DNA from: Hydractinia symbiolongicarpus | Taxonomy: Eukaryota > Cnidaria > Hydrozoa > Anthoathecata > Hydractiniidae | Assembly: GCF_029227915.1 (NCBI RefSeq) | Contig: NC_079884.1 | Span: 25,048,001-25,112,000, forward strand | Reading direction: 5' to 3' | Length of the DNA stretch: 64,000 bases | In this document: in pieces, positions 1 to 45,800 of the stretch | Layout of the letters: every line of letters starts with the position of its first letter | Position numbering within the stretch: the stretch's first letter is position 1 | Notes under the pieces: generated by a model | What the model saw: the letters and a program-made list of their open reading frames with translations, nothing else | Databases searched by the model: none | Told to the model about the DNA's origin: nothing | Program-made: the position numbers and the translations under genes

Positions 1-1690
1 TGCAAATATCTGGCAACGCCATAGAGGGTACAGAAAAAATCAGGTATTAATGCCTGAATTATTCTGTACCCCCCTACAGTTCTAGGCGTACAATATCTGG
101 CAACGCCATAGGGAGTACAGAAAAAATCAGGTATGTATGCCTGAATTATTCTGTACCCCCTACAGTTCTGGGCGTGCAAATATCTGGCAACGCCATAGGG
201 GGTACAGAAAAAAGCACGTATGGATGCCTGAATTATTCTGTATCCCCCTACAGTTCTGGGCGTACAAATATCTGGGTACGCCATGGGGGGTACAGAAAAA
301 ATCAGGTATGGATGCCTAAATTATTCTGTACCCCCCTACAGTTCTAGGCGTACAATATCTGGCAACGCCACAGGGGGTACAGAAAAAATCAGGTATGAAT
401 GCCTGAATTATTCTGTACCCCCCTACAGTTCTTGGCGTGCAAATATCTGGCAACGCCTTAGAGGGCACAGAAAAAATCAGGTATGGATGCCTGAATTATC
501 CTGTACCCCCCTACTGTTTTGGGCGTATAAATATCTGGCAACGCCATAGGGGGTACAGAAAAAATCAGGTATTAATGCCTGTATTATTCTGTACCCCCCT
601 ACAGTTCTAGGCGTACAATATCTGGCAACGCCATAGGGGGTACAGAAAAAATCAGGTATGAATGCCTGAATTATTCTGTACCCCCTACAGTTCTGGGCGT
701 GCAAATATCTGGCAACGTCATAGGGGGTACAGAAAAAATCAGGTATGGATGCTTGAATTATTCTGTACCCCCTACAGTGCTGGGCGTACAAACATCTGGT
801 AACGTCATAAGGGGTACAGAAATAATCAGGTATGGATGCCTGAATTATCCTGTACCCCCCTACTGTTTTGGGCGTATAAATATCTGGCAACGCCATAGGG
901 GGTACAGAAAAAATCAGGTATTAATGCCTGTATTATTCTGTACCTCCTTACAGTTCTGGGCGTAGAAGTATCTGGCAACGGCAAAGGGGGTACAGAAGAA
1001 ATCACGTATGAATGCCTGAATTATTCTGTACCCCCTCAGTGCTGGTCGTACAAACATCTGGCAACGCCATAGTGGGCACAAAAAAATCACGAATGAATGC
1101 CTGAATTATTCTGTACCCCCTACAGTGCTGGGCGTACAAACATCTGGTAACGTCATAAGGGGTACAGAAATAATCAGGTATGGATGCCTGAATTATTCTG
1201 TACCCACCTACAATTCTGGGCGTACAAATATCTGGTAACGCCATAGGGGGTACAGAAAAAGTCAGGTATTAATGCCTGAATTATTCTGTATCCCCCTACA
1301 GTTCTAGGCGTACACTATCCGGCAACGCCATAGGGGTACAGAAAAAATCAGGTATGAATGCCTGAATTATTCTGTACCCCCTACAGTTCTGGGCGTGCAA
1401 ATATCTGGCAACGCGATAGGGTGTACAGAAAAAATCAGGTATTAATGCTTGAATTATTCTGTACCCTCCCTACAGTTCTAGGCGTACAATATCTGGCACC
1501 GCGATAGGGGGTGCAGAAAAAATCAGGTATGAATGCCTGAATTATTCTGTAACCCCTACAGTTCTGGGCGTGCAAATATCTGGCTACGCCATAGGGGGTA
1601 CAGAAAAAATCAGGTACGGACGCCTGAATTATTCTGTACCCCCCTACAGTTCTGGGCGTACAAATATCTGGGTACGCCATGGGGGGTACA
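1..1690. repeat. Higher-order satellite block, copy 1
   Basis: The monomer order and most private variants of this block recur at about 4198-5800. The offset is 4197 bp up to about position 760 and 4110 bp after about position 1000, so one copy has gained or lost exactly one 87-bp monomer. The first 120 bases are also identical to 12301-12420, giving a third, shorter match. This shows array growth by segmental duplication rather than monomer by monomer. Confidence 0.85.
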
Positions 1691-2510
1691 GAAAAAATCA
1701 GGTATGGATGCCTGAATTATTCTGTACCCCCCTACAGTTCTAGGCGTACAATATCTGGCAACGCCACAGGGGGTACAGAAAAAATCAGGTATGAATGCCT
1801 GAATTATTCTGTACCCCCCTACAGTTCTGGGCGTGCAAATATCTGGCAACGCCATAGAGGGTACAGAAAAAATCAGGTATGAATGCCTGAATTATTCTGT
1901 ACCCCCTTGCAGTTCTTGGCGTAGAAGTATCTGGCAACGGGAAAGGGGGTACAGAAGAAATCACGTATGGATGCCTGAATTATTCTGTACCCCCCTACAG
2001 TTCTGGGCGTACAAATATCTGGGTACAGCATGGAGGGTACAGAAAAAATCAGGTATGGATGCCAGAATTATTCTGTACCCCCCTACAGTTCTAGGCGTAC
2101 AATATCTGGCAACGCCACAGGGGGTACAGAAAAAATCATGTATGAATGCCTGAATTATTCTGTACCCCCCCTTCAGTTCTGGGCGTGCAAATATCTGGCA
2201 ACGCCATGGAGGGTACAGAAAAAATCAGGTATGGATGCCTGAATTATCCTGTACTCCCCTAATGTTTTGGGCGTATAAATATCTGGCAACGCAATAGGGG
2301 GTACAGAAAAAATCAGGTATTAATGCCTGAATTATTCTGTACCCCCCTACAGTTCTAGGCGTACAATATCTGGCAACGCCATAGGGGGTACAGAAAAAAC
2401 CAGGTATGAATGCCTGAATTATTCTGTACCCCCTACAGTTCTGGGCGTGCAAATATCTGGCAACGCCATAGGGGGTACAGAAAAAATCAGGTATGGATGC
2501 CTGAATTATT

Positions 2511-3386
2511 CTGTCCCCCCCTACAGTTCTGGGCGTACAAGTATCTGGGTACGCCATGGGGGGTACAGAAAAAATCAGGTATGGATGCCTGAATTATTCT
2601 GTATCCCCTTACAGTTCTGAGCGTAGAAGTATCTGGCAACGGCAAAGGGGGTACAGATGAAATCACGTATGAATGCCTGAATTATTCTGTACCCCCTACA
2701 GTGCTGGTCGTACAAACATCTGGCAACGCCATAGGGGGTACAAAAAAAATCACGTATGAATGCCTGAATTATTCTGTACCCCCTACAGTGCTGGGCGTAC
2801 AAACATCTGGTAACGCCATAAGGGGTACAGAAAAAATCAGGTATGAATGCCTGAATTATTCTGTACCCCCCTACAATTCTGGGCGTACAAATATCTGGTA
2901 ACGCCATAGGGGGTACAGAAAAAATCAGGTATGGATCCCTGAATTATTCTGTCCCCCCCTACAGTTCTGGGCGTACAAATATCTGGGTACGCCATGGGGG
3001 GTACAGAAAAAATCAGGTATGGATGCCTGAATTATTCTGTATCCCCTTACAGTTCTGAGCGTAGAAGTATCTGGCAACGGCAAAAGGGGTACAGATGAAA
3101 TCACGTATGAATGCCTGAATTATTCTGTACCCCCTACAGTGCTGGTCGTACAAACATCTGGCAACGCCATAGGGGGTACAAAAAAAATCACGTATGAATG
3201 CCTGAATTATTCTGTACCCCCTACAGTGCTGGGCGTACAAACATCTGGTAACGCCATAAGGGGTACAGAAAAAATCAGGTATGAATGCCTGAATTATTCT
3301 GTACCCCCCTACAATTCTGGGCGTACAAATATCTGGTAACGCCATAGGGGGTACAGAAAAAATCAGGTACGGATGCCTGAATTATT
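2511..3386. repeat. 438-bp tandem duplication of five monomers
   Basis: Bases 2511-2948 and 2949-3386 are two nearly identical copies at an offset of 438 bp, five monomers. Both carry the same rare CTGTCCCCCC, GTACAGATGAAATCACG and GGTACAAAAAAAATCACG variants. It looks like a recent unequal-exchange product inside the satellite. Confidence 0.85.
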
Positions 3387-4197
3387 CTTTACCCCCCTAC
3401 AGTTCTAGGCGTACAATATCTGGCAACGCCATAGGGGGTACAGAAAAAATCAGGTATGAATGCCTGAATTATTCTGTACCCCCCTACAGTTCTGGGCGTG
3501 CAAATATCTGGCAACGCCATAGAGGGTACAGAAAAAATCAGGTATGGATGCCTGAATTAATCTGTACCCCCCTACAGTTTTGGGCGTATAAATGTCTGGC
3601 AACGTCATAGGGGGTACAGAAAAAATCACGTATTAATGCCTGAATTATTCTGTACCCCCCTACAGTTCTAGGCGTACAATATCTGGAAACGCCATAGGGG
3701 GTACAGAAAAAATCAGGTATGAATGCCTGAATTATTCTGTACCCCCTACAGTTCTGGGCGTGCAAATATCTGGCAACGCCATAGGGGGTACAGAAAAAAT
3801 CAGGTATGGATGCCTGAAATATTCTGTACCCCCCCACAGTTCTGGGCGTACAAATATCCGGGTACGCCATGGGGGCTACAGAAAAAATCTGGTATGGATG
3901 CCTGAATTATTCTGTACACCCTTACAGTTCTTGGCGTAGAAGTATCTGGCAACGGCGAAGGGGATACAGAAAAAATCAGGTATGGATGCCTGAATTATTC
4001 TGTACCCCCTACAGTTCTGGGCGTACAAATATCTGGGTACGCCATGGGGGGTACAGAAAAAATCAGATATGGATGCCGGAATTATTCTGTACCCCCCTAC
4101 AGTTCTAGGCGTACAATATCTGGCAACGCCACAGGGGGTACAGAAAAAATCAGGTATGAATGCCTGAATTATTCTGTACCCCCTACAGTTCTGGGCG

Positions 4198-5800
4198 TGC
4201 AAATATCTGGCAACGCCATAGAGGGTACAGAAAAAATCAGGTATTAATGCCTGAATTATTCTGTACCCCCCTACAGTTCTAGGCGTACAATATCTGGCAA
4301 CGCCATAGGGAGTACAGAAAAAATCAGGTATGTATGCCTGAATTATTCTGTACCCCCTACAGTTCTGGGCGTGCAAATATCTGGCAACGCCATAGGGGGT
4401 ACAGAAAAAATCACGTATGGATGCCTGAATTATTCTGTATCCCCCTACAGTTCTGGGCGTACAAATATCTGGGTACGCCATGGGGGGTACAGAAAAAGTC
4501 AGGTATGGATGCCTGAATTATTCTGTACCCCCCTACAGTTCTAGGCGTACAATATCTGGCAACGCCACAGGGGGTACAGAAAAAATCAGGTATGAATGCC
4601 TGAATTATTCTGTACCCCCCTACAGTTCTTGGCGTGCAAATATCTGGCAACGCCTTAGAGGGTACAGAAAAAATCAGGTATGGATGCCTGAATTATCCTG
4701 TACCCCCCTACTGTTTTGGACGTATAAATATCTGGCAACGCCATAGGGGGTACAGAAAAAATCAGGTATTAATGCCTGTATTATTCTGTACCCCCCTACA
4801 GTTCTAGGCGTACAATATCTGGCAACGCCATAGGGGGTACAGAAAAAATCAGGTATGAATGCCTGAATTATTCTGTACCCCCTACAGTTCTGGGCGTGCA
4901 AATATCTGGCAACGTCATAGGGGGTACAGAAAAAATCAGGTATGGATGCCCGAATTATTCTGTACCCCCCTACAGTTCTGGGCGTACAAATATCTGGGTA
5001 CGCCATGGGGGTACAGAAAAAATCAGGTATGGATGCCTGAATTATTCTGTACCTCCTTACAGTTCTGGGCGTAGAAGTATCTGGCAACGGCAAAGGGGGT
5101 ACAGAAGAAATCACGTATGAATGCCTGAATTATTCTGTACCCCCTCAGTGCTGGTCGTACAAACATCTGGCAACGCCATAGGGGGCACAAAAAAAATCAC
5201 GTATGAATGCCTGAATTATTCTGTACCCCCTACAGTGCTGGGCGTACAAACATCTGGTAACGTCATAAGGGGTACAGAAATAATCAGGTATGGATGCCTG
5301 AATTATTCTGTACCCACCTACAATTCTGGGCGTACAAATATCTGGTAACGCCATAGGGGGTACAGAAAAAGTCAGGTATTAATGCCTGAATTATTCTGTA
5401 TCCCCCTACAGTTCTAGGCGTACACTATCCGGCAACGCCATAGGGGTACAGAAAAAATCAGGTATGAATGCCTGAATTATTCTGTACCCCCTACAGTTCT
5501 GGGCGTGCAAATATCTGGCAACGCGATAGGGTGTACAGAAAAAATCAGGTATTAATGTTTGAATTATTCTGTACCCTCCCTACAGTTCTAGGCGTACAAT
5601 ATCTGGCAACGCGATAGGGGGTGCAGAAAAAATCAGGTATGAATGCCTGAATTATTCTGTAACCCCTACAGTTCTGGGCGTGCAAATATCTGGCTACGCC
5701 ATAGGGGGTACAGAAAAAATCAGGTATGGACGCCTGAATTATTCTGTACCCCCCTACAGTTCTGGGCGTACAAATATCTGGGTACGCCATGGGGGCTACA
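4198..5800. repeat. Higher-order satellite block, copy 2
   Basis: This is the second copy of the block at 1-1690. It shares rare variants such as GGTATGTATGCC and the short linker CCCCTCAGTGCTGG. It differs from copy 1 by one monomer and scattered point changes, so it is older than the near-identical 438-bp duplication at 2511-3386. Confidence 0.8.
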
Positions 5801-8800
5801 GAAAAAATCAGGTATGGATGCCTGAATTATTCTGTACACCCTTACAGTTCTGGGCGTGCAAATATCTGGCAACGCCATAGAGGGTACAGAAAAAATCAGG
5901 TATGGATGCCTGAATTTTTCTGTACCCCCCTACAGTTTTGGGCGTATAAATATCTGGCAACGCCATAGAGGGTACAGAAAAAATCAGGTATGGATGCCTG
6001 AATTATTCTGTACCCCCCTACTGTTTTGGGCGTATAAATATCTGGCAACGCCATAGGGGGTACAGAAAAAATCAGGTATGAATGCCTGAATTATTCTGTA
6101 CCCCCTACAGTTCTGGGCGTGCAAATATATGGCAACCCCATAGGGGGTACAGAAAAAATCAGGTATGGATGCCTGAATTATTCTTAACCCCCCCCCCACA
6201 GTTCTGGGCGTACAAATATCCGGGTACGCCATGGGGGCTACAGAAAAAATCAGGTATGAATGCCTGAATTATTCTGTACCCCCCTTCAGTTCTGGGCGTG
6301 CAAATATCTGGCAACGCCATGGAGGGTACAGAAAAAATCAGGTATGGATGCCTGAATTATCCTGTACCCCCCTACTGTTTTGGGCATATAAATATCTGGC
6401 AACGCCATAGGGGGTACAGAAAAAATCAGGTATTAATGCCTGAATTATTCTGTACCCCCCTACAGTTCTAGGCGTACAATATCTGGCAACGCCATAGGGG
6501 GTACAGAAAAAATCAGGTATGAATGCCTGAATTATTCTGTACCCCCTACAGTTCTGGGCGTGCAAATATCTGGCAACGCCATAGGGGGTACAGAAAAAAT
6601 CAGGTATGGATGCCTGAATTATTCTGTACCCCCCTACAGTTCTGGGCGTACAAATATCTGGGTACGCCATGGGGGGTACAGAAAAAATCAGGTATGGATG
6701 CCTGAATTATTATGTACCCCCTACAGTTCTGGGCGTGCAAATATCTGGCAACGCCATAGGGCGTACAGAAAAAATCACGTATGGATGCCTGAATTATTCT
6801 GTACCCCCCAACAGTTCAGGGCGTACAAATATCTGGGTACGCCATGGGGGGTACAGAAAAAATCATGTATGGAAGCCTGAATTATTCTGTACCCCCCTAC
6901 AGTTCTAGGCGTACAATATCTGGCAACGCCACAGGGGGTACAGAAAAAATCAGGTATGAATGCCTGAATTATTCTGTACCTCCTACAGTTCTGGGCGTGC
7001 AAATATCTGGCAACGCCATAGGGGGTACAGAAAAAATCACGTATGGATGCCTGAATTATTCTGTACCCCCCTACAGTTCTGGGCGTACAAATATCTGGGT
7101 ACGCCATGGGGGGTACAGAAAAAATCAGGTATGGATGCCTGAATTATTCTGTACCCTCCTACAGTTCTAGGCGTACAATATCTGGCAACGCCACAGGGGG
7201 TACAGAAAAAATCAGGTATGAATGCCTGAATTATTCTGTACCCCCTTGCAGTTCTTGGCGTAGAAGTATCTGGCAACGGGAAAGGGGGTACAGAAGAAAT
7301 CACGTATGGATGCCTGAATTATTCTGTACCCCCCTACAGTTCTAGGCGTACAATATCTGGCAACGCCACAGGGGGTACAGAAAAAATCATGTATGAATGC
7401 CTGAATTATTCTGTACCCCCCCCCCTCCCCCTTCAGTTCTGGGCGTGCAAATATCTGGCAACGCCATGAAGGGTACAGAAAAAATCAGGTATGGATGCCT
7501 GAATTATCCTGTACCCACGTACTGTTTTGGGCGTATAAATATCTGGCAACGCCATAGGGGGTACAGAAAAAATCAGGTATTAATGCCTGAATTATTCTGT
7601 ACCCCCTACAGTTCTAGGCGTACAATATCTGGCAACGCCATAGGGGGTACAGAAAAAATCAGGTATGAATGCCTGAAATATTCTGTACCCCCTACAGTTC
7701 TGGGCGTGCAAATATCTGGCAACGCCATAGGGGGTACAGAAAAAATCAGGTATGGATGCCTGAATTATTCTGTACCCCCCTACAGTTCTGGGCGTACAAA
7801 TATCTGGGTACGCCATGGGGGGTACAGAAAAAATCAGGTATGGATGCCTGAATTATTCTGTACCCCCCTACAGTGCTGGTCGTACAAACATCTGGCAACG
7901 CCATAGGGGGTACAAAAAAAATCACGTATGAATGCCTGAATTATTCTGTACCCCCTACAGTGCTGGGCGTACAAACATCTGGTAACGCCATAAGGGGTAC
8001 AGAAAAAATCAGGTATTAATGCCTGAATTATTCTGTACCCCCCTACAGTTCTAGGCGTACAATATCTGGCAACGCCATAGGGGGTACAGAAAAAATCAGG
8101 TATGGATGCCTGAATTATTCTGTACCCCCCTACTGTTTTGGGCGTATAAATATCTGGCAACGCCATAGGGGGTACAGAAAAAATCAGGTATTAATGCCTG
8201 AATTATTCTGTACCCACCTACAGTGCTGGTCGTACAAACATCTGGCAACGCCATAGGGGGTACAAAAAAAATCACGTATGAATGCCTGAATTATTCTGTA
8301 CCCCCTACAGTGCTGGGCGTACAAACATCTGGTAACGCCATAAGGGGTACAGAAAAAATCAGGTATTAATGCCTGAATTATTCTGTACCCCCCTACAGTT
8401 CTAGGCGTACAATATCTGGCAACGCCATAGGGGGTACAGAAAAAATCAGGTATGAATGCCTGAATTAATCTGTACCCCTTACAGTTCTGGGCGTGCAAAT
8501 ATCTGGGTACGCCATGGGGGGTACAGAAAAAATCAGGTATGGATGCCGGAATTATTCTGTACCCCCCTACAGTTCTAGGCGTGCAAATATCTGGCAACGC
8601 CAGGGAGGGTACAGAAAAAATCAGGTATGGATGCCTGAGGTATTCTGTACCCCTACAGTTTTGGGCGTATAAATGTCTGGCAACGTCATAGGGGGTACAG
8701 AAAAAATCATGTATTAATGCCTGAATTATTCTGTCCCCCCCTACAGTTCTAGGCGTACAATATCTGGCAACGCCATAGGGGGTACAGAAAAAATCAGGTA

Positions 8801-11800
8801 TGAATGCCTGAATTATTCTGTACCCCCTAAAGTTCTGGGCGTTCAAATATATGGCAACCCCATAGGGGGTACAAAAAAAATCAGGTATGGATGCCTGAAT
8901 TATTCTGTACCCCCCCCCCCCCCCCACAGTTCTGGGAGTACAAATATCCGGGTACGCCATGGGGGCTACAGAAAAAAGCAGGTATGGATGCCTGAAATAT
9001 TCTGTACACCCTTACAGTTCTTGGCGTAGAAGTATCTGGCAACGGCGAAGGGGGTACAGAAAAAATCAGGTATGGATGCCTGAATTATTCTGTACCCCCC
9101 TACAGTTCTGGGCGTACAAATATCTGGGTACGCCATGGGGGGTACAGAAAAAATCAGGTATGGATGCCTGAATTATTCTGTACCCCCCTACAGTTCTAGG
9201 CGTACAATATCTGGCAACGCCACAGGGGGTACAGAAAAAATCAGGTATGAATGCCTGAATTATTCTGTACCCCCCTACAGTTGTGGGCGTGCAAATATCT
9301 GGCAACGCCATAGAGGGTACAGAAAAAATCAGGTATGGATGCCTGAATTATCCTGTACCCCCCCTACTGTTTTGGGCGTATAAATATCTGGCAACGCCAT
9401 AGGGGGTACAGAAAAAATCAGGTATTAATGCCTGAATTATTCTGTACCCCCCTACAGTTCTAGGCGTACGATATCTGGCAACGCCATAGGGGGTACTGAA
9501 AAAATCAGGTATGAATGCCTGAATTATTCTGTACCCCCTACAGTTCTGGGCGTGCAAATATCTGGCAACGCCACAGGGGGTACAGAAAAAATCAGGTATG
9601 AATGCCTGAATTATTCTGTACCCCTCTACAGTTCTGGGCGTGCAAATATCTGGCAACGCCATAGAGGGTAGAGAAAAAATCAGGTATGGATGCCTGAATT
9701 TTTCTGTACCCCCCTACTGTTTTGGGCGTATAAATATCTGGCAACGCCATAGGGGGTACAGAAAAAATCAGGTATTAATGCCTGAATTATTCTGTACCCC
9801 CCTACAGTTCTAGGCGTACGATATCTGGCAACGCCATAGGGGGTACAGAAAAAATCAGGTATGAATGCCTGAATTATTCTGTACCCCCTACAGTTCTGGG
9901 CGTGCAAATATATGGCAACCCCATAGGGGGTACAGAAAAAATGAGGTATGGATGCCTGAATTATTCTGTACCACCCCCCCCCCCCCCCCCCCCCACAGTT
10001 CTGGGCGTACAAATATCCGGGTACGCCATGGGGGCTACAGAAAAAATCAGGTATGGATGCCTGAATTATTCTGTACACCCTTACAGTTCTGGGCGTGCAA
10101 ATATCTGGCAACGCCATAGAGGGTACAGAAAAAATCAGGTATGGATGCCTGAATTTTTCTGTACCCCCCTACAGTTTTGGGCGTATAAATATCTGGCAAC
10201 GCCATAGAGGATACAGAAAAAATCAGGTATGGATGCCTGAATTATTCTGTACCCCCCTACTGTTTTGGGCGTATAAATATCTGGCAACGCCATAGGGGGT
10301 ACAGAAAAAATCAGGTATGAATGCCTGAATTATTCTGTACCCCCTACAGTTCTGGGCGTGCAAATATATGGCAACCCCATAGGGGGTACAGAAAAAATCA
10401 GGTATGGATGCCTGAATTATTCTTAACCCCCCCCCCCCCCCACAGTTCTGGGCGTACAAATATCCGGGTACGCCATGGGGGCTACAGAAAAAATCAGGTA
10501 TGGATGCCTGAATTTTTCTGTACCCCCCTACTGTTTTGGGCGTATAAATATCTGGCAACGTCATAGGGGGTACAGAAAAAATCAGGTATTAATGCCTGAA
10601 TTATTCTGTACCCCCCTACAGTTCTAGGCGTACAATATCTGGCAACGCCATAGGGGGTACAGAAAAAATCAGGTATGAATGCCTGAATTATTCTGTACCT
10701 CCTACAGTTCTGGGCGTGCAAATATCTGGCAACGTCATAGCTGGTACAGAAAAAATCAGGTATGGATGCCTGAATTATTCTGTACCCCCCTACAGTGCTG
10801 GTCGTACAAACATCTGGCAACGCCATAGGGGGTACAAAAAAAATCAGGTATGAATGCCTGAATTAATCTGTACCCCCTACAGTTCTGGGCGTGCAAATAT
10901 CTGGGTACGCCATGGGGAGTACAGAAAAAATCAGGTATGGATGCCGGAATTATTCTGTACCCCCCTACAGTTCTAGGCGTGCAAATGTCTGGCAACGTCA
11001 TAGGGGGTACAGAAAAAATCAGGTATTAATGCCTGAAATATTCTGTTCCCCCCTACAGTTCTAGGCGTACAATATCTGGCAACGCCATAGGGGGTACAGA
11101 AAAAATCAGGTATGAATGCCTGAATTATTCTGTACCCCCTACAGTTCTGGGCGTGCAAATATATGGCAACCCCATAGGGGGTACAGAAAAAATTAGGTAT
11201 GGATGCCTGAATTATTCTGTACCCCCCCCCCACAGTTCTGGGCGTACAAATATCCGGGTACGCCATGGGGGCTACAGAGAAAATCAGGTATGGATGCCTG
11301 AATTATTCTGTACACCCTTACAGTTCTTGGCGTGGAAGTATCTGGCAACGGCGAAGGGGGTACAGAAAAAATCAGGTATGGATGCCTGAATTATTCTGTA
11401 CCCCCCTACAGTTCTGGGCGTACAAATATCTGGGTACGCCATGGGGGGTACAGAAAAAATCAGGTATGGATGCCTGAATTATTCTGTACCCCCCTACAGT
11501 TCTAGGCGTACAATATCTGGCAACGCCACAGGGGGTACAGAAAAAATCAGGTATGAGTGCCTGAATTATTCTGTACCCCCCTACAGTTCTGGGCATGCAA
11601 ATATCTGGCAACGCCATAGAGGGTACAGAAAAAATCAGGTATGGATGCCTGAATTATCCTGTACCCCCCTACTGTTTTGGGCGTATAAATATCTGGCAAC
11701 GCCATAGGGGGTACAGAAAAAATCAGGTATTAATGCCTGAATTATTCTGTACCCCCCTACAGTTCTAGGCGTACAATATCTGGCAACGCCATAGGGGGTA

Positions 11801-12824
11801 CAGAAAAAATCAGGTATGAATGCCTGAATTATTCTGTACCCCCTACAGTTCTGGGCGTGCAAATATATGGCAACCCCATAGGGGGTACAGAAAAAATCAG
11901 GTATGGATGCCTGAATTATTCTGTACCCCCCCCCCCCACAGTTCTGGGCGTACAAATATCCGTGTACGCCATGGGGACTACAGAAAAAATCAGGTATGGA
12001 TGCCTGAATTATTCTGTACACCCTTACAGTTCTTGGCGTAGAAGTATCTGGCAACGGCGAAGGGGGTACAGAAAAAATCAGGTATGGATGCCTGAATTAT
12101 TCTGTACCCCCCTACAGTTCTGGGCGTACAAATATCTGGGTACGCCATGGGGGGTACAGAAAAAATCAGGTATGGATGCCTGAATTATTCTGTACCCCCC
12201 TACAGTTCTAGGCGTACAATATCTGGCAACGCCACAGGGGGTACAGAAAAAATCAGGTATGAATGCCTGAATTATTCTGTACCCCCTACAGTTCTGGGCG
12301 TGCAAATATCTGGCAACGCCATAGAGGGTACAGAAAAAATCAGGTATTAATGCCTGAATTATTCTGTACCCCCCTACAGTTCTAGGCGTACAATATCTGG
12401 CAACGCCATAGGGAGTACAGAAAAAATCAGGTATTAATGCCTGAATTATTCTGTACCCCCCTACAGTTCTAGGCGTACAATATCTGGCAACGCCATAGGG
12501 GGTACAGAAAAAATCAGGTATGAATGCCTGAATTATTCTGTACCCCCTACAGTTTTGGGCGTATAAATATCTGGCAACGCCATAGGGGGTACAGAAAAAA
12601 TCAGGTATTAATGCCTGAATTATTCTGTACCCCCCTACAGTTCTAGGCGTACAATATCTGGCAACGCCATAGGGGGTACAGAAAAAATCAGGTATGAATG
12701 CCTGAATTATTCTGTACCCCCTACAGTTCTGGGCGTGCAAATATCTGGCAACGTCATAGGGGGTACAGAAAAAATCAGGTATTGATGCCTGAATTATTCT
12801 GTACCCCCCTACAGTGCTGGTCGT

Positions 12825-12828
12825 ACAA
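12825..12828. other. Target-site duplication ACAA, left
   Basis: ACAA ends the left satellite part and is repeated at 18781-18784. Joining the two flanks over one ACAA restores GCTGGTCGTACAAACATCTG, which is exactly the intact monomer sequence found elsewhere in the array (for example around 2703). This fixes the element borders to the base. Confidence 0.95.
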
Positions 12829-12865
12829 CACGGCTGTTTCAGAGCGGAAACTAAGACTGCGCATG
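12829..12865 (+). repeat. Left terminal inverted repeat (short-spacer end)
   Basis: The end reads CACGGCTGTTTCAG, then AGC, then GGAAACTAAGACTGCGCATG. The 14-bp outer block is identical to the other end and the 20-bp inner block differs at one position. The spacer here is 3 bp. Confidence 0.92.
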
Positions 12866-13656
12866 CGTCAATAATTACGGCCACGTTGAGGCGCAAGATG
12901 GCGGGCGCAAATAAAAACAATCATGATAAATAAGTAACTAACTTTTTGAAATCGCTTTTGCATGATAGAATCTATTTCAGTGGATTTAATTTAGTTTTTT
13001 AAAGCATTTCAACACGCTGGAAGCTAAATCTTTCTTTTACCTTTGCGACAAGCATGCTGTTGGAGTAATACTGTGGCAGTTTTGAAGGCATACTTTTTTT
13101 TGTTAAAATTAACATGGCAACTTGTTCCAACTAATTTTTGGTTTTGTGGACGTTGCGAAGTTATGTGGCTGGTGTATTATATATTTTTGGAAAGCTGAAA
13201 GGCTCATCTACAAGGTAAGAAAAACGAAAAAACTGTATCAGTACTTCTGAAAGAATGCTAGAGCGCTGAATTCTGGCAATAAAAGTTAGTGTAAAACCTG
13301 AAAATTTTAACTCCCTCTTTGACATAATCTACTGTATGATTTATTGTAGGCATTAAAACTGTTGTAGTTTACTAAGCTAATATTTCACAGAATAACAACA
13401 CTAAACAACATTCTATATAAACAATTCTGTAACTCTAAATAAGGTTTCTGCGTCTCATACACTACTAACGTAAGCTCGACAAAAAGTCAAATAAAAATGA
13501 ACTATGCATGTAGTAAGCTAATTAACTGTTCAATTCTTTTTCTTTCTAGACCAGCTGATCCACCTTTAAAATAATGCAAAGACTAAAGGAGCTTGCAAAG
13601 TAATGCTAATATGCAGTTAAAGATATAACTAGCTATCTAAGCTGTAAGTCTAAAAG
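12866..13656. other. Transposon interior, 3' flank without gene
   Basis: This lies between the left end and the transposase stop codon. It is AT-rich and I see no coding exon on either strand. It probably holds the transposase 3' UTR. A minus-strand AATAAA corresponds to 13340-13345, about 310 bp past the stop. A CAAGATGGCGG motif, as bound by YY1-type factors in animals, lies at 12893-12903; its use here is unknown. Confidence 0.5.
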
Positions 13657-16600
13657 TTATTCTTCACGTGCAATTTTTCTTTTTTTAATTTTTGGTTTTA
13701 ATTGGCTCGATTCAGGATTTACATTAACAAAATGTTGCTTTAATGTATTTCGTAACCGCTCGACTGGGTTTTTGATGCAGCTGTACCTGCTCGACATCCT
13801 GTTGATTTCATGATGCAAGCTTTCTCCACCTTAAAAATGTTATAATTTGACATTTAAGCTAGCTAGCTACACATTTTCTGAAAAATAACACATTTTGGTA
13901 AAAAACACAAATTTTGGTGTTACCAGGTTACAAATTTAAGTGGCTGTTTACCTTGTTCGCCATAAAACCCAAATCCAACATTCCATTTTGCTATGAACTC
14001 AGTGACATGATCTTCAAGCATATGCAGTTTTGGTGAAATATTAACTTTTGGCCAGTTAGTTCGCAGATGCATCATGAATTTATTAATTGAAATTTCTAGA
14101 ATTATGTACTATATGTATATTATTCTTTCTTTTTGTTTTGTTTTTGGCACATGAAATTTTAAAAAAAACTTATTTATTATTAAAAAAAGGAACAAGTTTC
14201 TCACCTAAAGCCAGTATTTCCTCACATGACAGATATTTTGCCGAATTGTAAATGTTATGAACTTCTGCAAAGTAAGTAAATAACATGTCGTACTTATCCA
14301 TTTCTAAATTCACACTGTGAATAAGCTGGTCATCATGCTTTTGTGCTGCAACAATCTCTTTAATGCTGGATGTTAAATTTTGGATGTTTTCTTTCTATAA
14401 GAGCAAGATTGTTTTTTTAATTTTCTTTAAATATGTTATTTTTAAATTGCTACATTATTGTTAGTATTAACAAACCTTTAGCAATTTATGTACATGGTTG
14501 CCGATAAAACTTTGGCCATGGTAGGCCTGACGTTCAACACCCATTTTTTGCAGCGTTTTATCTATTGAAGAAGCACAAGGACCAACACCTAAAATAAGAT
14601 GAACAAACTATTAAACATAGCTTTAGATTGGAGAGAATATAAGGCTTGCATCATAAGATCAGAATGAAAATTATAATTTTGGAAAGTTTTTTTTCGGGAA
14701 TTAAATTTCTTGGAATTTCCAGACAAAAAAACATTTGCGAATATCACAAAAAATTACTTAGGTAATAAAAATGATCATACCCACTAAAATTCTTTTGTTG
14801 TTTCCCAAGGTTGAGATTTCTAATTCTAATTCTGTGATTTTCTTCTCAGTTTTTATTATACTTTTCTCGTACGTCAGTATATTTCGTTGTAAGCCACCAG
14901 ATATTACAAGCCAGTTTAACTGATCTTGCTGGTTTGCTAATTTGGCTTTTTCATCTTCCAGCTTTTGCTGCAAGTCATTTGTTTCTTTAAGGACTTCGAT
15001 GTAGTCACCATAATCTGAATCCAGTTCATTGTCTTCTGTTGCCAACAGCAGAGCTATTTTTACATCATAGTCTTGGCAAGAAGACTCAAACATTTTAAAC
15101 ATCTTTTGATATACACCCAAGGAAATATGAAGACCAGGAATACAGACCTAAAATTAGGTGTTTATATAGATTTTATTTTGGGATTATTAAATCAACTTGC
15201 AGTGGAAAAGCATAAAAATATGATGTATACTTGATCAATAGGTATGTCAAAAAATATGTTGTCAATGACATTATAAAATTCTTTCGCATTTTTAGGGCTC
15301 CCACCACTTTCACGGAAATCTGCTAAATTTTCTTCAAGTGTCGCCAGTGACCTTTTCTTAAATTTCTTGCGAGTAAACACTGGGATGTTCATTAGTTTTG
15401 AGGTAATGTTGCAAAACAAACAGCTGTGACGCCCTAAACACAAATGTTAAAGTATACATATTTTATTAGAAACTTTTAAAAATAAACCATTTTTAACTAT
15501 GCATTTCCCATATCTGCGTAGTAAAAACCCATTGTTAAACTACAGGAACTTTATGAAGTTGCAAAAAAAGTTCTGTAAAAATTAATTAATTTTGATTATC
15601 AACTAGCAACTTGCCCCAGATCTTAAGTAATTAATATTTACCATTTGCACCAGTTATACCATACATTGCACACAGAAATTCGTAGTCGCCATACATAAAT
15701 ACACGGAATATCGACTCTTTATATTTGACTTGTTGCAGCATTTTTATTTGTGGTCAAAAATTAATTAATTTTGATTATCAACTAGCAACTTGCCCCAGAT
15801 CTTAAGTAATTAATATTTACCATTTGCACCAGTTATACCATACATTGCACACAGAAATTCGTAGTCGCCATACATAAATACACGGAATATCGACTCTTTA
15901 TATTTGACTTGTTGCAGCATTTTTATTTGTGGTCGAAACCGTTCAAGGCAGACTCTTAAGTTTGTTCTTGTGTCTTTCCCTAATTTAAAAAAAAAATATA
16001 AAAAATGTTTTGATTTCTACTTTAGATCACTTAGATCATTTCTACTTTAGATCACAATTAGACATCACATGCATAGAATTTTGGAAATTCCAGTTTTAAT
16101 TTTTTTTTTTTCATATTTGTAATATATTGCATTAATGTTTGTTACCTTCAAAAATGCTAAACATTATTGTGTTTTCCTTCTTGTTTGGGTTTAGAACATT
16201 GCCTATTTGATATGCCATTTTAAAACTATTTCCTCCATGGTCTCCACCAATTTTAACATGGATCTCATTGTCAGGAATGAAACTATGTTTTACAAGTAAA
16301 TTGTGACATTCTAGCTTTTTGAGTTGATACAGAATGTGGCCAACTACATTATACAGATACCCCCAGGGCCTAGGTATAACGGATACCCTGTTTCCAACTG
16401 ATAATTTGGTGAGAGGAGCCAGCTCAACTCTCAGTCCTTGGCCTACCCATTCAGCAGCGACACTTCTTGCTTTTTTTTCTGATTCAATTTTTATGTTGAA
16501 TGTTTTCAACCAACGTGATATTTCACGTAGTTGATTCCATGGCATGTTTAAATTTGATTTCATTGCTGTGATGTGATTGGCTGGAATAATGACTTCTGTA

Positions 16601-18300
16601 CCCAAATTTTTAATGATAGTATTTCTGTCACTTTCTTCCATAGACTTTAGCAGTGCTGTGGTCTGTTTTGTGACAGATTGGGTTTCTTCACCAGACATCA
16701 GATGGATTAACTCCTTGGCTGTATTTGCTCTTTTCCGCACATTCCTTTCACATGTTTCATCAGAAGACTTGCGAGGAATTCTAATGGGTGTTATTGTCAA
16801 TGGCTAAAATATGGAACATATGTTATTAATTTGTTTTATGTAAAATGTAATATTACTATTAAAATTATCATATTGTTACAGACAATTATGTGTACATTAT
16901 TTTTAATATAACATAGCATAGTTTTGTATTTTTGTATAAAGTAGTTATACACATTTTTTATATAAGATCACTTAACGATGTAGACGCCTTAGCATTTAGG
17001 GTGGGCACATCAAAATTTTAGTAAATCTCCTAATATATAGAATGGTTTTTATTGACCCCCAAAACTTCCTATATTCTGTGACCCCTCTAGCCACTTACTT
17101 ATATTTATTATTATTTTTAATTATTTACTCTGAACATTTTAAAATTTGTCTTGTTCTTATTATGGCTTGTTTTTTGTATAAAAAATGTGTATAAGAAACA
17201 TTTCACTGGAATTGTAAAAAAATGATAACCTAGGTATGCACATATATAGACATATACAAAAGCAACTTATTTTCAGTTTTGATTTCAGCCTTAAAATTGC
17301 TAAGATCAAAGATCAGCTAAGATCAGCCGTTTGAAAATCAGTTGCTTGTTAAAAAAAGTCAATGTCAAATCACTTTTACTGAGTCCACTCCATACATAAG
17401 TAATCTTACTTGTGAACTTCCACTGGGCAATTGGACAGTTTTATTCGGCAAGTTTGACTGCTGCATTTTTATTCCAACCACATGAGCAATGCATTCTTCT
17501 ACCTTTTTCGGTACAGGCTTGGAAGGGCTCAACTGCATCATCTCTAGTGTTGTAAATGACAATGCTGGAGAGCATGTGTGCGATTGTGCAGACAGCAGTT
17601 TAAATGAACAACCACATGTTCCCTTGACAACTCGTGTGTTTAAAATCCTGGAAATGCACAAACCAGGCGAGACATCCCCGGGTGTTGTTGGGATGCTGCA
17701 GGTGGGACATCTATTTGAATTTTCCAACCAATTTGTTAAACACAAGGCACAAAACACGTGGTTACATTGGTTTATCATTAATGGCCTTTTTAAAATATTG
17801 CTACACAAAGCACAAATCAGATGTTCCCAGTTGCCTTCACTGATATTTATGTCTGAGAGAACGTTTCCACTATAGTCAAAAAGTTCAGAGGTTTTTCTGT
17901 AAATTTTATTAAGTTCTAGGGGTGTCCAAGTTTTTTCTGCGGAATCCACAGCTTTGTGTGTTGGGTTACCACCGCCCCTTCTTTTCATAGGTTTGCCACC
18001 TCTCTTTTTTTGTGCACTTAATATGCATGTTTTGCACTCGGTGTCTTTATGTGTATACCATTTAACAGGCACAATAGCGGTAGCTGAGTCACGTTTTAGG
18101 ACATTACTTATTGTAGCAAAGCACGAGTGACAGAATTTTTTTGGGTGAATGCCTGCCCGATCAGAATAAAAATCAGCTCTGAAAATACTGTCCAAGTTCT
18201 TTATGTGCTCTTGGACAATATGTGATCGTCCAGGCAGAGTGTTTCCACATATTCGACACAGCTTGTTCAACCGAGCTAGGTGTAAATCCCCAGTAGCCAT
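13657..18300 (-). CDS. RAG1L: RAG1-like transposase, 9 exons, 965 aa
   Basis: Predicted transposase for the surrounding element. Exons, 5' to 3': 18300-17410, 16803-16146, 15979-15821, 15433-15231, 15147-14781, 14588-14476, 14394-14205, 14095-13952, 13829-13657. All have GT/AG borders and matching phases, giving 965 codons and TAA. Residues 15-92 hold RAG1-N-like Cys/His pairs (LCRICG, KKFCHSCF, THKDTECKTC). Residues 163-201 are a C3HC4 RING (CALC, CNHVFCALC, CPTC), followed by a CxC/HxC finger at 229-243. Proposed catalytic residues are D485 (KIGGDHGG), D555 (YGDYEFLC) and E907 (FYGEQGGES). C574/C577 and H885/H890 form CxxC and HxxxxH pairs. D555 to C574 is 19 residues, the same spacing as RAG1 D708 to C727. 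The start is the ATG just before the zinc region. I see no frameshift or stop. Splicing is predicted, not observed. Confidence 0.87.
15577..15934. repeat. 179-bp tandem duplication covering RAG1L exon 3 and its donor
   Basis: Bases 15577-15755 and 15756-15934 appear identical. The unit holds the 3' part of exon 3, including the codons for YGDYEFLC with the proposed second catalytic aspartate, plus its donor and the start of the next intron. The copy at 15577-15755 lacks the exon start and has no AG acceptor before it, so it should stay intronic. It is a recent local duplication inside the transposase gene. Confidence 0.93.
17410..18300 (-). other. RAG1L: RAG1L exon 1: RAG1-type N-terminal zinc and RING region
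   Basis: This single 297-codon exon ends at the donor CAA|GTAAGA. It holds all N-terminal zinc features, with a basic linker (KKRGGKPMKRRGGG, residues 98-111) between the first Cys/His cluster and the RING. The same order occurs in vertebrate RAG1: first cluster, basic stretch, RING, then a further zinc finger. Having the whole region on one exon, apart from the DDE core, is compatible with a modular fusion. Confidence 0.85.
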
Positions 18301-18733
18301 CTTGAACTTTAACAAAAATTTTGAAAAAAAAGTACCTAATGTTTGATACAATATCAATTCGTAATGTACTGATACACCTACAGTTCTTTTTTTATTCGTA
18401 TCTCGTAACTATCTTGGAATGATTTTTATAAAAATTATCTGTGGGATAACTTCGTATCTGAAAATATTTTGCTTTAAGTTGGCATGGTGTCCACAGTCTT
18501 CAAAATGGAGGTTGAAAGTTTTTGTTTTGTTTTAGCTAGGCAACAAGCGAATAGCTTTGTATTTGAATTAATCTTATTGGTATAGGACTATATTTTATTT
18601 AAACCACTTAGTTTCCAGTCCTTAAGTTGGTTTATGTGATTAAAATGCCTATTAAACCTGGTGCTAGCTACCCTAAAATTTGTTTACTTTTAAGCGCAAC
18701 TCGCCCCAGTCCTTATTTTAAATTTTTTTTTGA
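18301..18733. other. Transposon 5' flank and probable promoter region
   Basis: This is the space between the right end and the RAG1L start codon. It is AT-rich and has no ORF I trust. The RAG1L promoter should lie here, reading leftwards. The sequence around the start codon reads CAAGATGGC on the minus strand, resembling the CAAGATGGCGG near the other end. Confidence 0.4.
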
Positions 18734-18780
18734 CATGCGCAGTCTGAGTTTCCGAAATCTCGCTAGCTGAAACAGCCGTG
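18734..18780 (-). repeat. Right terminal inverted repeat (long-spacer end)
   Basis: Read inward on the minus strand: CACGGCTGTTTCAG, then a 13-bp spacer CTAGCGAGATTTC, then GGAAACTCAGACTGCGCATG. The spacer is 10 bp longer than at the left end, about one helical turn. This end lies next to the transposase promoter side. Confidence 0.92.
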
Positions 18781-18784
18781 ACAA
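18781..18784. other. Target-site duplication ACAA, right
   Basis: Second copy of the ACAA at 12825-12828; the satellite monomer resumes directly from here as ACAAACATCTGGCAACGCC. Confidence 0.95.
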
Positions 18785-19015
18785 ACATCTGGCAACGCCA
18801 TAGGGGTACAAAAAAAATCACGTATGAATGCCTGAATTATTCTGTACCCCCTACAGTGCTGGGCGTGCAAATATCTGGCAACGTCATAGGGGGTACAGAA
18901 AAAATCAGGTATGAATGCCTGAATTATTCTGTACCCCCTACAGTGCTGGGCGTACAAACATCTGGTAACGCCATAAGGGGTACAGAAAAAATCAGGTATG
19001 GATGCCTGAATTATT
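18781..19015. repeat. Right remnant of the satellite array
   Basis: Nearly three further monomers of the same satellite, in register with the array left of the transposon. The array stops inside a monomer at GCCTGAATTATT. So the transposon landed within about 250 bp of the array edge. Confidence 0.95.
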
Positions 19016-19404
19016 TTGGCTTCCCTGCTGTGAGCAGGCGTGTGTTCGAATCTCATCTTGGTAACTATTTTTACTTTTTTTTTTTTTTGCTGTTATAAAT
19101 TCTAATCTAAAACACAGCTTTTTGTAAACTTTATTCGCGAGGTTGTTTATGTATATCATGCGTCTTTATACATTGAAAATTGTAATAATACCAAGGTTTA
19201 AACTGAAGCAGTTCGCTACACAGCGTTGAACCAGCATCGAAGTGAAGGGAAGCACTCTTTCGGTTACCGTAAAAAATGTGTGACGGAAATATACTCGGTA
19301 CTAAAAGATATACCTTGAAACATAGGGGGGTACAGAAAAAATCAGGGGTACAATAAAATTTATTACAAGTATCAGCTGTGTTTATACCACTTAATATACT
19401 TAGC
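19016..19404. other. Leader region before the methyltransferase start
   Basis: This is non-coding sequence between the satellite edge and the KMT5 start codon, presumably promoter and 5' UTR. It includes GTGTTCGAATCTCATC, similar to a Pol III B box, followed by a T run; this may be a tRNA-derived SINE scrap, but the evidence is weak. Confidence 0.4.
19321..19347 (+). repeat. Isolated satellite half-monomer
   Basis: CATAGGGGGGTACAGAAAAA and the following ATCAGG match one arm of the satellite palindrome. It stands alone about 305 bp beyond the array edge and 58 bp upstream of the KMT5 start codon. It may be a relic of the dispersed element from which the satellite grew. Confidence 0.8.
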
Positions 19405-42800: not shown

Positions 42801-45800
42801 ATGTCTCATATTATTGTTTGTGCACAAAACAGAGCATCACCTCCTGCATAGACCCTCTACATTTTTGGTGCTGCTGAATTTGAGTTTCATTTCTGGCACA
42901 CACCATACAAAAGTGACCTATACAGTCCCAACTTCATATGTAACAGGCGCTGTTTCCGACGTTCTGCGATAAGTCGGGAACGAAGTTTCTTTTCGGATTC
43001 TGCACTACAATGTAACCCAACTTTTCGGATTATGCACATGTGCATGAGAATAGTATAAATGCAAGTGATGTATCCTTGGTCAACTGAAACCGTGGCACAA
43101 GAGAAATAAAAATCATGATCACATTGCAACATAATTAACATATCGATGCTTCGAAAATAAGTAGGCAACATGTTGTAAACCACTTTAAAATTCTTTTGTT
43201 TATAATTATATTGGTAACTGATTGGTATGATATACACACAATCAACATCGACCAGAGAAAGTGGAATGGGTTCTATTGAGCGAAGTCCACGGTTGAACCT
43301 GCTATTTAGCAAAGTCCACGGTTGAACTAAAACAAAAGATAAACATTCAAGATAGCGACATTGAGACTGTTGTGGTGATGTTGAAAATATACTAATAAAC
43401 AGGGAGTTTAAATTGTTTTGTATAGCAAGAAAATTCAGAAATATTTATCTCATTCGTCTGTAATAAAAATTCATGCAAGCGATTTAAAGCTGGTGTAGCA
43501 AATATTACGCAAGCGCTACATGCTTGCAAGCAATCGCTCGCAACTTCTAGAACGCCTTCAGCATCAATATTATATATCACTTTTTTACTATTTTATCTGG
43601 CGCAAAAATTTAATTTAAAACTACAACAAAAACGTATTTAAATTAATCACTTATTTTCTATATTTTTGCTTTAGATTTACTGTTTCATACATACCCTGAT
43701 ATAAAAACCCACTACCTATCGTAACCCTCGAGAGGAGTGAGCTCCAACTATAGAATTCTTAACATATTTTGTTAAAATATTGCATCATGCTTCTAGTAGT
43801 GCACCATAAGCATCTAAGTAGTGCACCATAAGAAATTTATAAATTTTTCATTTCCTTACTTTTCTGTTTTCCTAATATATAAATGTAGGTTTATAAAGCA
43901 ACACATAGGTTTTAAAATATTTGGTTTATCTTTACCTTTGGTTGGAAATAAAGGTTAAAGGCACCCTTTAAATATTCTTTCCTTTAATATTTTTTTTTTT
44001 TTATTTTTTTTTTTTTGCAAAATAAAATTCTGCAGAGAAAAAGTTAAAATATTAGTACTAACCAAGAATGTTGTGAGTGAAAGAATTCTGATTGAAAAAA
44101 ATTGAATGCAAAAAAGCACCTTGCCAGTTGCACACTTTATAGCTTTCACAATATCACAATCTCTTTTTTAGGTGATACAAGGATTTTAGTTTCCAATGGA
44201 AAGGAAATCGGTAAATTCACCTTTGGATCGTCACTGTATTCAAAAGTTTTGGATGAAAAAGATTATATTCAATCTATAGCATATGCCTATAAAGAAGATT
44301 TTGTATTTTATACAAATTTTCTGGCTGATAGGGCTGTAATAAAAGGAGTCCATTTGGATGGTAATAAAGGCGATGCCCCTATACTAATCGAGTCCACAAC
44401 TGAAAATGGTTTTAAAGCATTAGCAGTTGACTGGGTTACTAAGAAACTTTACTTTACTGACATGGCGAAAAATAGAATCGAAGTTTGTCCTTATGATGGA
44501 TCGTACAGAAGAGTTTTGGTATCCAAAGGTCTTGATCAGCCTGTGGCAATAGCTCTTCATCCACAAAAAGGGTATGTTAAATTATTACGGTTAAAAAGCT
44601 ATTTTAGTTAAGGTTCATGGTGACAAAGTATTACACATTTTTTTAAAAAGCAACCAAGTTGCTGAAATAGTGGATGAGATTTGGGTGAAAACTGATTAAA
44701 TTTCAAAATTTAAACCAAAGGTGTCCTAATCATCTAACTTTATATTCCAAAAATGGCATGTGTCCAGCAAGCAACTTTAATCTGAAATCATATATTTGCT
44801 AAATCAAATATTTATCAACTGAGAGTGAGATGTAAAATGGAATTGCTTTACGAAAACAAAAATACTGTAAAAACTTTTTATCAAATGAATGTTCAAAAAA
44901 ACTGCAATTATTTAAACCAAGGCTTTTTTCAGGAGATACATGAAAAATAATGCAACACGCCCACACACAATTTCATGAGAAGTTGGCCAATGCAGCTCAC
45001 CCAAAAGCATGTATGAATCAGTCGTCATGTTTTTTTCACTACGCATTACAAATTTTTTCTGATTCTGTTTTGCCTAAGACAGATTTGACATGATTTTTGG
45101 TGAAGAGTGGAACATATAATGGACCAACAATAGTATATGTGCAAAAGTCTTACCACAATGTACATGCTTTTTTACTATAATTTGGTGTCATAATTGTTTG
45201 TCTAAGAGCTTTCACTGTGATAAAAGCTAAAGACTTAATTTATCACTGCCTTATCATCATAATAATCCTCATCTTATATTAATTTGTCGCTTTTAATTAA
45301 AGGTACATGTTTGTGGCTGATTGGGGCGATCGTAAAATTGCTCGTTATGATATGGACGGTAAAAACGAGTTTGTTCTGGTCAACAAAGGAGTCAACGCTG
45401 TGCCATACTCCATAGCAATTGATATTGAAACAAATCTCTTATTTTATGGTGATATTGGTATGCATACAATTGAGTATATTACGATAGATAAGAAAAACAG
45501 GACAGTTCTGAAGGAAAATGTACAACCACATCATATGTTTGTCTTCAAAAATATTTTGTTTTGGTCAGATCAAAAAGCTAATATCTATGCATTAGACATT
45601 CACAAACCTAGTAATATGACTAATGATACTGTTCCTGAGCTTCGTCAAGTTCCATCTGATTTGGTCATATTGTCAGCTAATATTCAACCTGATGGTATGT
45701 TTATCTTAATTAATCTTGACGCAACGGATAGCTGTACTGTTTTAATAATAAGTGGACAATGTTTTGTTTTATGCATTAAATATTCTCTTGAATAATATTC

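Follow-up and report, generated by a model that had tools for sequence, protein, structure and literature searches.

The closest described relatives of the element reported here are the Chapaev transposons and, for part of its protein, the vertebrate recombinase RAG1. Kapitonov & Koonin 2015 (PMC4411706), citing Kapitonov & Jurka 2007 as the source for Chapaev, describe a Chapa domain common to RAG1 and Chapaev, followed in two Chapaev subgroups by a RING. Their Chapaev elements come from sea anemone and lancelet, the available text giving no species for the RING subgroups, and it is already argued there that the joining of Chapa, RING and core goes back to a common ancestor. The CMC/CMCT group is described as having CA..TG termini, target site duplications (TSDs) of 2-5 bp, and two Cys plus two His residues between the second D and the E of the DDE core, and the TSDs of RAGL and Transib elements are reported as 5 bp. 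We analyzed a 64,000-nucleotide window of the cnidarian Hydractinia symbiolongicarpus genome (GCF_029227915.1, contig NC_079884.1, forward-strand positions 25,048,001 to 25,112,000; all positions below are those of the window), which contains a complete element on the minus strand at 12829-18780. The element is very probably a Chapaev-kind cut-and-paste transposon that is intact and was mobile very recently, with one spliced gene for a 965-residue transposase made up of a zinc module, a RING and a DDE core.

An initial annotation had described a complete mobile element in a cnidarian-type genome, and this was borne out by exact coordinates, matching ends and a 4-bp TSD. The terminal sequences read CACGGCTGTTTCAG...CTGAAACAGCCGTG, i.e., CACGGCTGTTTCAG and its reverse complement, and they are flanked by ACAA at 12825-12828 and again at 18781-18784. 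The nine exons, all on the minus strand, splice together in frame, giving 965 codons and a stop, as annotated, with GT-AG boundaries at all eight introns and a reading frame unbroken throughout. Exon 1 (17410-18300) holds the start codon, the RAG1-type N-terminal zinc module and the RING; exon 2 (16146-16803) holds DUF1280 and the first catalytic D, D485; exon 3 (15821-15979) holds the second, D555; exon 4 (15231-15433) holds a C-X2-C pair; exons 5 (14781-15147), 6 (14476-14588) and 7 (14205-14394) follow, and exon 8 (13952-14095), with an H-X4-H pair and E907, is joined to exon 9 and the stop (13657-13829). The surrounding DNA is a satellite (3-12828 and 18777-19015) with an 87-bp unit, or 175-bp dimer, whose monomer carries an approximately 54-bp imperfect palindrome, and the transposon is inserted within this array. 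When the element and one ACAA were excised in silico, the resulting join aligned over 170 columns, at 97.6% identity, with another monomer pair of the array. With three mismatches and one gap, the claim that a monomer is restored thus stands, within the variation of the array; retaining both ACAA copies added a second gap and four extra columns.

That the element has moved recently was seen from its other copies. The genome searched comprised 480.9 Mb in 76 contigs (the available HSymV2.0 table lists 482.9 Mb and 84 sequences; PMC10411563), and a search with exon 2, in which 150 of 171 candidates were scored, found at least 22 full-length matches at 100% identity, the window's included, along with many diverged or partial matches. 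The 22 copies compared (the window's and 21 others) were chosen for an intact, identical exon 2. Each has a perfect 4-bp TSD, and they represent 21 sites because copies L016 and L017 have identical flanks. Lengths range from 5,548 to 6,132 bp, and substitution divergence averages 0.07% between pairs, with a maximum of 0.22%, figures lowered by the choice of copies with identical exon 2; in 12 of the 22, again counting the window's, all nine exons are letter-identical to the window's. An exact tandem duplication of 179 bp that takes in part of exon 3 and its intron, overlooked in the initial annotation, is present in the window as an intronic copy (15577-15755) and a copy that contains the used part of exon 3 (15756-15934); the segment occurs once in 5, twice in 15 and three times in 2 of the 22 copies. 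When the end patterns were sought genome-wide with up to three mismatches, 27 5' ends and 34 3' ends were found and none with reversed controls. A 3' end faced 25 of the 27 5' ends within 9 kb, and 9 of the 34 3' ends were without a 5' partner; for four of these nine, which are related in sequence (L088-L091), no TSD partner was found within 2.6 kb. These four have a family-1-like 3' end (CAGCGCGGAAAGTAAG) and partly different interiors, and their 5' ends were not found. In sum, the 22 copies are the product of a recent burst, which may be continuing. An intact reading frame and RAG1-like domains could also recall domestication, i.e., a host gene lying amid transposon remains, but the pattern of 22 near-identical copies at 21 sites, all with intact ends and a TSD, is that of a mobile element and makes a domesticated gene scarcely credible. 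A natural empty site was found for a second family (family 2; about 57% identical in exon 2), one of whose insertions (L047; G000:C6:6411500-6420500; TSD GGTA) adjoins a second, tandem copy of its flanking sequence that lacks the element. In family 5, the flanks of two copies (L068, L069, L081, L082) match each other as repeated sequence, which suggests that these copies lie within a further tandem repeat.

The N-terminus of the transposase is, by sequence, a genuine RAG1-type module. Pfam matches to exon 1 included RAG1_imp_bd (PF12560), above its cut-off, and a RING finger; within the protein the Chapa/RAG1 N-terminal zinc region spans residues 7-103 (17992-18282, minus strand; PF12560 match at residues 38-103) and the C3HC4 RING spans residues 163-201 (17698-17814, minus strand). 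The spliced protein on its own aligned with mouse RAG1 over residues 38-229 to 156-357 (4e-11), covering the zinc region and RING, and mouse RAG1 ranked second to a RING2/BMI1 chimera (1e-11). A search of the Hydractinia genome with exon 1 gave 133 matches, many further families among them, and a profile was built of 11 N-termini from 10 families (L052 and L061 belong to the same family; L051 and L059 were dropped for broken frames, and L058 and L060 as near-duplicates of L054 and L055). RAG1_imp_bd was found in all 11 and a RING in 10 of the 11. Against the PDB this profile found mouse RAG1 95-379 first, with an E value of 1.7e-23, and the best plain RING protein scored below it at 3.3e-16. 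The CRICG, HP..C..C and W.pH....C..C motifs align between the profile and mouse RAG1, and the order of zinc region, RING and following zinc finger is colinear with mouse RAG1 95-379. The predicted model of exon 1 had a mean pLDDT (predicted local distance difference test) of 71.7, and a fold search with it found RINGs generally (TRAF6, LNX, RING1B), with RAG1 (1rmd) at rank 29 and 6.1e-4; it is the sequence profile, not the fold by itself, that distinguishes RAG1. A protein search with residues 1-297 returned 777 candidates, none at E<=0.001.

The core has a different affinity. The initial annotation had placed a RAG1-type zinc/RING region and a DDE core with RAG1-like zinc pairs on one gene, and this stood: RAG1 N-terminal similarity, RING and DUF1280 all lie on the single spliced protein, with D485, D555 and E907 in place, C-X2-C at 574-577 and H-X4-H at 885-890. 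Profile searches of the core found Pfam DUF1280 (PF06918, 4.3e-15), which we take to be the Chapaev-type DDE core; five of five protein homologues likewise matched PF06918, and no RAG1 core model was among the core's Pfam matches at E<=0.1. Between D555 and E907 lie two Cys (C574, C577) and two His (H885, H890), as in Chapaev (CMC/CMCT) transposases; the CACGG..CCGTG termini and the 4-bp TSD agree with the CA..TG ends and 2-5 bp duplications of the CMC group; and the protein has a Chapa domain followed by a RING, as in Chapaev subgroups. Chapaev elements duplicate 4 bp of target. Together, the Pfam core, the Cys/His pairs, the termini, the TSD and the Chapa domain fit a Chapaev-kind DNA transposon. 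Transib was considered as an identity and rejected, the TSD being 4 bp rather than 5 bp in all 22 copies. The RAG1-like transposon of the initial annotation, taken as one of the RAG1/RAGL type, was not supported either. Such an element, of the RAGL/ProtoRAG type, would be directly related, as a cnidarian cousin, to the RAG1-RAG2 element, and the thought has some appeal given the RAG1-type N-terminus, asymmetric bipartite ends such as RAGL elements have (available texts of PMC8289069 and PMC9435367), the RAGL pairs reported from corals and a jellyfish (PMC7204232, likewise), and the predicted core model of a relative, whose best structural likenesses were RAG1, RAGL and Transib. The RAG1-core likeness, however, appears only at the level of the fold predicted for that relative. 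The 5-bp TSD, the convergent RAG2-like gene and the RAG1 core by sequence that distinguish RAGL elements were all lacking, the last at the threshold given above; for the RAG2-like gene, none of 10 unassigned plus-strand open reading frames (ORFs) scanned, of 65 listed at 12400-19200, had a Pfam match, and the non-gene portions of the element amount to only 828 and 480 bp. A RAGL-type transposon is therefore very unlikely, chiefly because of the TSD length and the core family.

With the element taken as Chapaev-kind, the distribution of its RING can be considered. Family 2 keeps the zinc region, and no RING motif was found in three coding-strand frames of its L047 copy. In a 10-row tree of the core, the window's element, family 2 and sequences P0001 and P0002 form a clade with 99/99 support, to which families L049-L051 are sister; the L051 copy, a RING-family row of this tree, has a damaged RING itself. 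No RING was seen in P0001 or P0002, and viral contigs scanned with P0001 contained no relative. The RING thus looks to have been lost within the window's clade, being missing from the close sister family 2, and loss is simpler than two gains because the RING is colinear with that of RAG1. The case for loss rests on the core tree since the tree of N-termini has good support at 2 of 11 inner branches. As for the suggestion in the initial annotation that the element bears on whether the RING half was joined before the major animal lineages split, a deep joining had already been argued from Chapaev (PMC4411706, available text) and so is not new, and the RING-less relative suggests loss as well. 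Among RAGL elements, according to the available text of PMC7204232, those of molluscs have the RING-type domain and those of a nemertean, echinoderms and the jellyfish Aurelia lack it. A RING kept in diverged families and absent from a close sister family offers a natural test of its purpose.

The two ends of the element are bipartite and unequal, an asymmetry that the initial annotation had also missed. On the minus strand, the 5' end consists of the 14-bp outer block CACGGCTGTTTCAG (18767-18780), a 13-bp spacer (18754-18766) and the inner block GGAAACTCAGACTGCGCATG, which starts at base 28 (18732-18753); the 3' end has the identical 14-bp block (12829-12842), a spacer of 3 bp (12843-12845) and the inner block GGAAACTAAGACTGCGCATG, which starts at base 18 (12846-12867; GGAAACTAAGACTGCGCATGCG). 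Both ends were located and compared in nine Hydractinia families, the window's and eight more. When the register was adjusted manually, all nine had the inner block beginning at base 18 in the 3' end and at base 28 or 29 in the 5' end, so that the offset between the ends is 10 or 11 bp, one helical turn, in nine of nine. When the best match between the ends was sought blindly, the offset was 10 or 11 in six of six families tested with 12-base words and in eight of nine with 16-base words; the exception, family 2, gave 4, which we attribute to a gap inside its inner block, and in family 8 a second offset scored 14/16 against 16 for the best. Ends with shuffled letters reached the observed score in 0-9 of 200 trials (12-base words) and 0-3 of 200 (16-base words). 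Both flanks of ten copies from the eight other families were read, largely by visual inspection, and all ten copies show a 4-bp TSD; the TSD had also helped to list the 3' ends of families 7-9, and the same places came up when the end pattern was used without it. One family-5 copy begins CATG instead of CACG, and no 3' end was found for two additional copies (stretches L079 and L083).

The 5' spacers of different families share 28% identity, which is near chance, and their outer and inner blocks 60-64%; the spacing is kept, and the spacer sequence is not. The two spacers of recombination signal sequences (RSSs), 12 and 23, differ by 11 bp, about one helical turn, and the Hydractinia families likewise have two end types whose spacers are about one turn apart, a layout of the 12/23 type. 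The pairing of 25 of 27 5' ends with a 3' end in the genome fits a rule of unlike ends without proving it. We tentatively propose, as a possibility that we rate below even, both that Chapaev transposases with a RAG1 N-terminus obey a 12/23-like rule and that the asymmetry and the RAG1 front half predate the split of Chapaev, Transib and RAG; short-spacer and long-spacer ends would then synapse with each other, and the asymmetry would have been inherited from the common ancestor of the three. Also rated below even is the reading that the same element carries its asymmetry as a by-product, a 5' promoter sequence and an insert inherited by all families and having no role in pairing. The families do share descent (some of them by the tree), and the 5' end adjoins the start of the gene, but a constant offset of 10-11 bp between ends whose spacers have diverged far more than their blocks means that length was kept where sequence was not. 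No published account of one-turn asymmetric Chapaev ends, or of Chapaev with a heptamer and spacer, was found in a literature search that lay outside most subscription papers and Repbase Reports; the bipartite one-turn asymmetry of Chapaev ends is possibly new, with weak literature support for its novelty.

Anatomy, copies, TSDs, N-terminal homology and the conserved end layout are directly supported; for the Chapaev-kind transposon that they describe, the layout and analogy with RAG suggest the following working. The transposase would bind both blocks, outer and inner, at each end, and two or more copies of it would most likely bring together one short-spacer 3' end and one long-spacer 5' end. 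The cut would fall outside the terminal CAC, with joining to the target at a 4-bp stagger. The RING would probably act as an E3 ubiquitin ligase, tuning the level of transposase or host factors, and transposition would probably not require it, given that the closely related family 2 has spread too while lacking a RING. A seemingly live cnidarian element that joins a RAG1 N-terminal module to a DDE core makes testable both the job of the RAG1 front half in a transposon and whether an unlike-end, 12/23-like rule is older than RAG; gene editing is reported for the Hydractinia host.

Elsewhere in the window, plus-strand ORFs at 44096-57184, three with matches to low-density lipoprotein receptor class B repeats and one with a match to an EGF-like domain, look like exons of an LRP-like receptor gene.

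Compared with known systems, the element is nearest to the published Chapaev transposons with Chapa and RING, having the same RAG1-like zinc domain and then RING on one transposase; the combination of RAG1 front and RING on Chapaev is not new, because such elements are in print (Kapitonov & Koonin 2015). The Hydractinia family differs in being near-identical in 22 copies and looking mobile, a comparison made by description only, so that Repbase entries may share these features, and its one-turn asymmetric ends, found across the Hydractinia families, are not mentioned for Chapaev in the available text of PMC4411706. Asymmetric ends are described for RAGL and some Transib elements. The RAGL element of a pelagophyte alga, AanRAGL, has a 13-bp outer and a 10-bp inner element with spacers of 4 and 13 bp (PMC9435367, available text), unequal in the same way as the 3-bp and 13-14-bp spacers beside the 14-bp block in Hydractinia; unlike the Hydractinia element, it has RAG1L and RAG2L, a 5-bp TSD and a RAG1/Transib core. 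ProtoRAG requires its bipartite asymmetric ends for activity (PMC8289069, available text), and it and other RAGL elements share with the Hydractinia element such ends, an N-terminal zinc region, a RING that varies by lineage and a DDE core with Cys and His pairs, but RAGL elements have a RAG2L gene, a 5-bp TSD and other spacer lengths. With vertebrate RAG1 and its RSSs the likenesses are an N-terminal module colinear with RAG1 95-379, signals that begin CAC and a one-turn difference in spacers, whereas the Hydractinia element has a far-diverged core, another inner block, a 4-bp TSD and no RAG2 among the ORFs scanned. N-RAG-TP of Aplysia (Panchin & Moroz 2008, as described in the available text of PMC8355894) is likewise a mobile element with RAG1 N-terminal-like sequence; it consists entirely of such sequence, whereas the Hydractinia element also has a DDE core.
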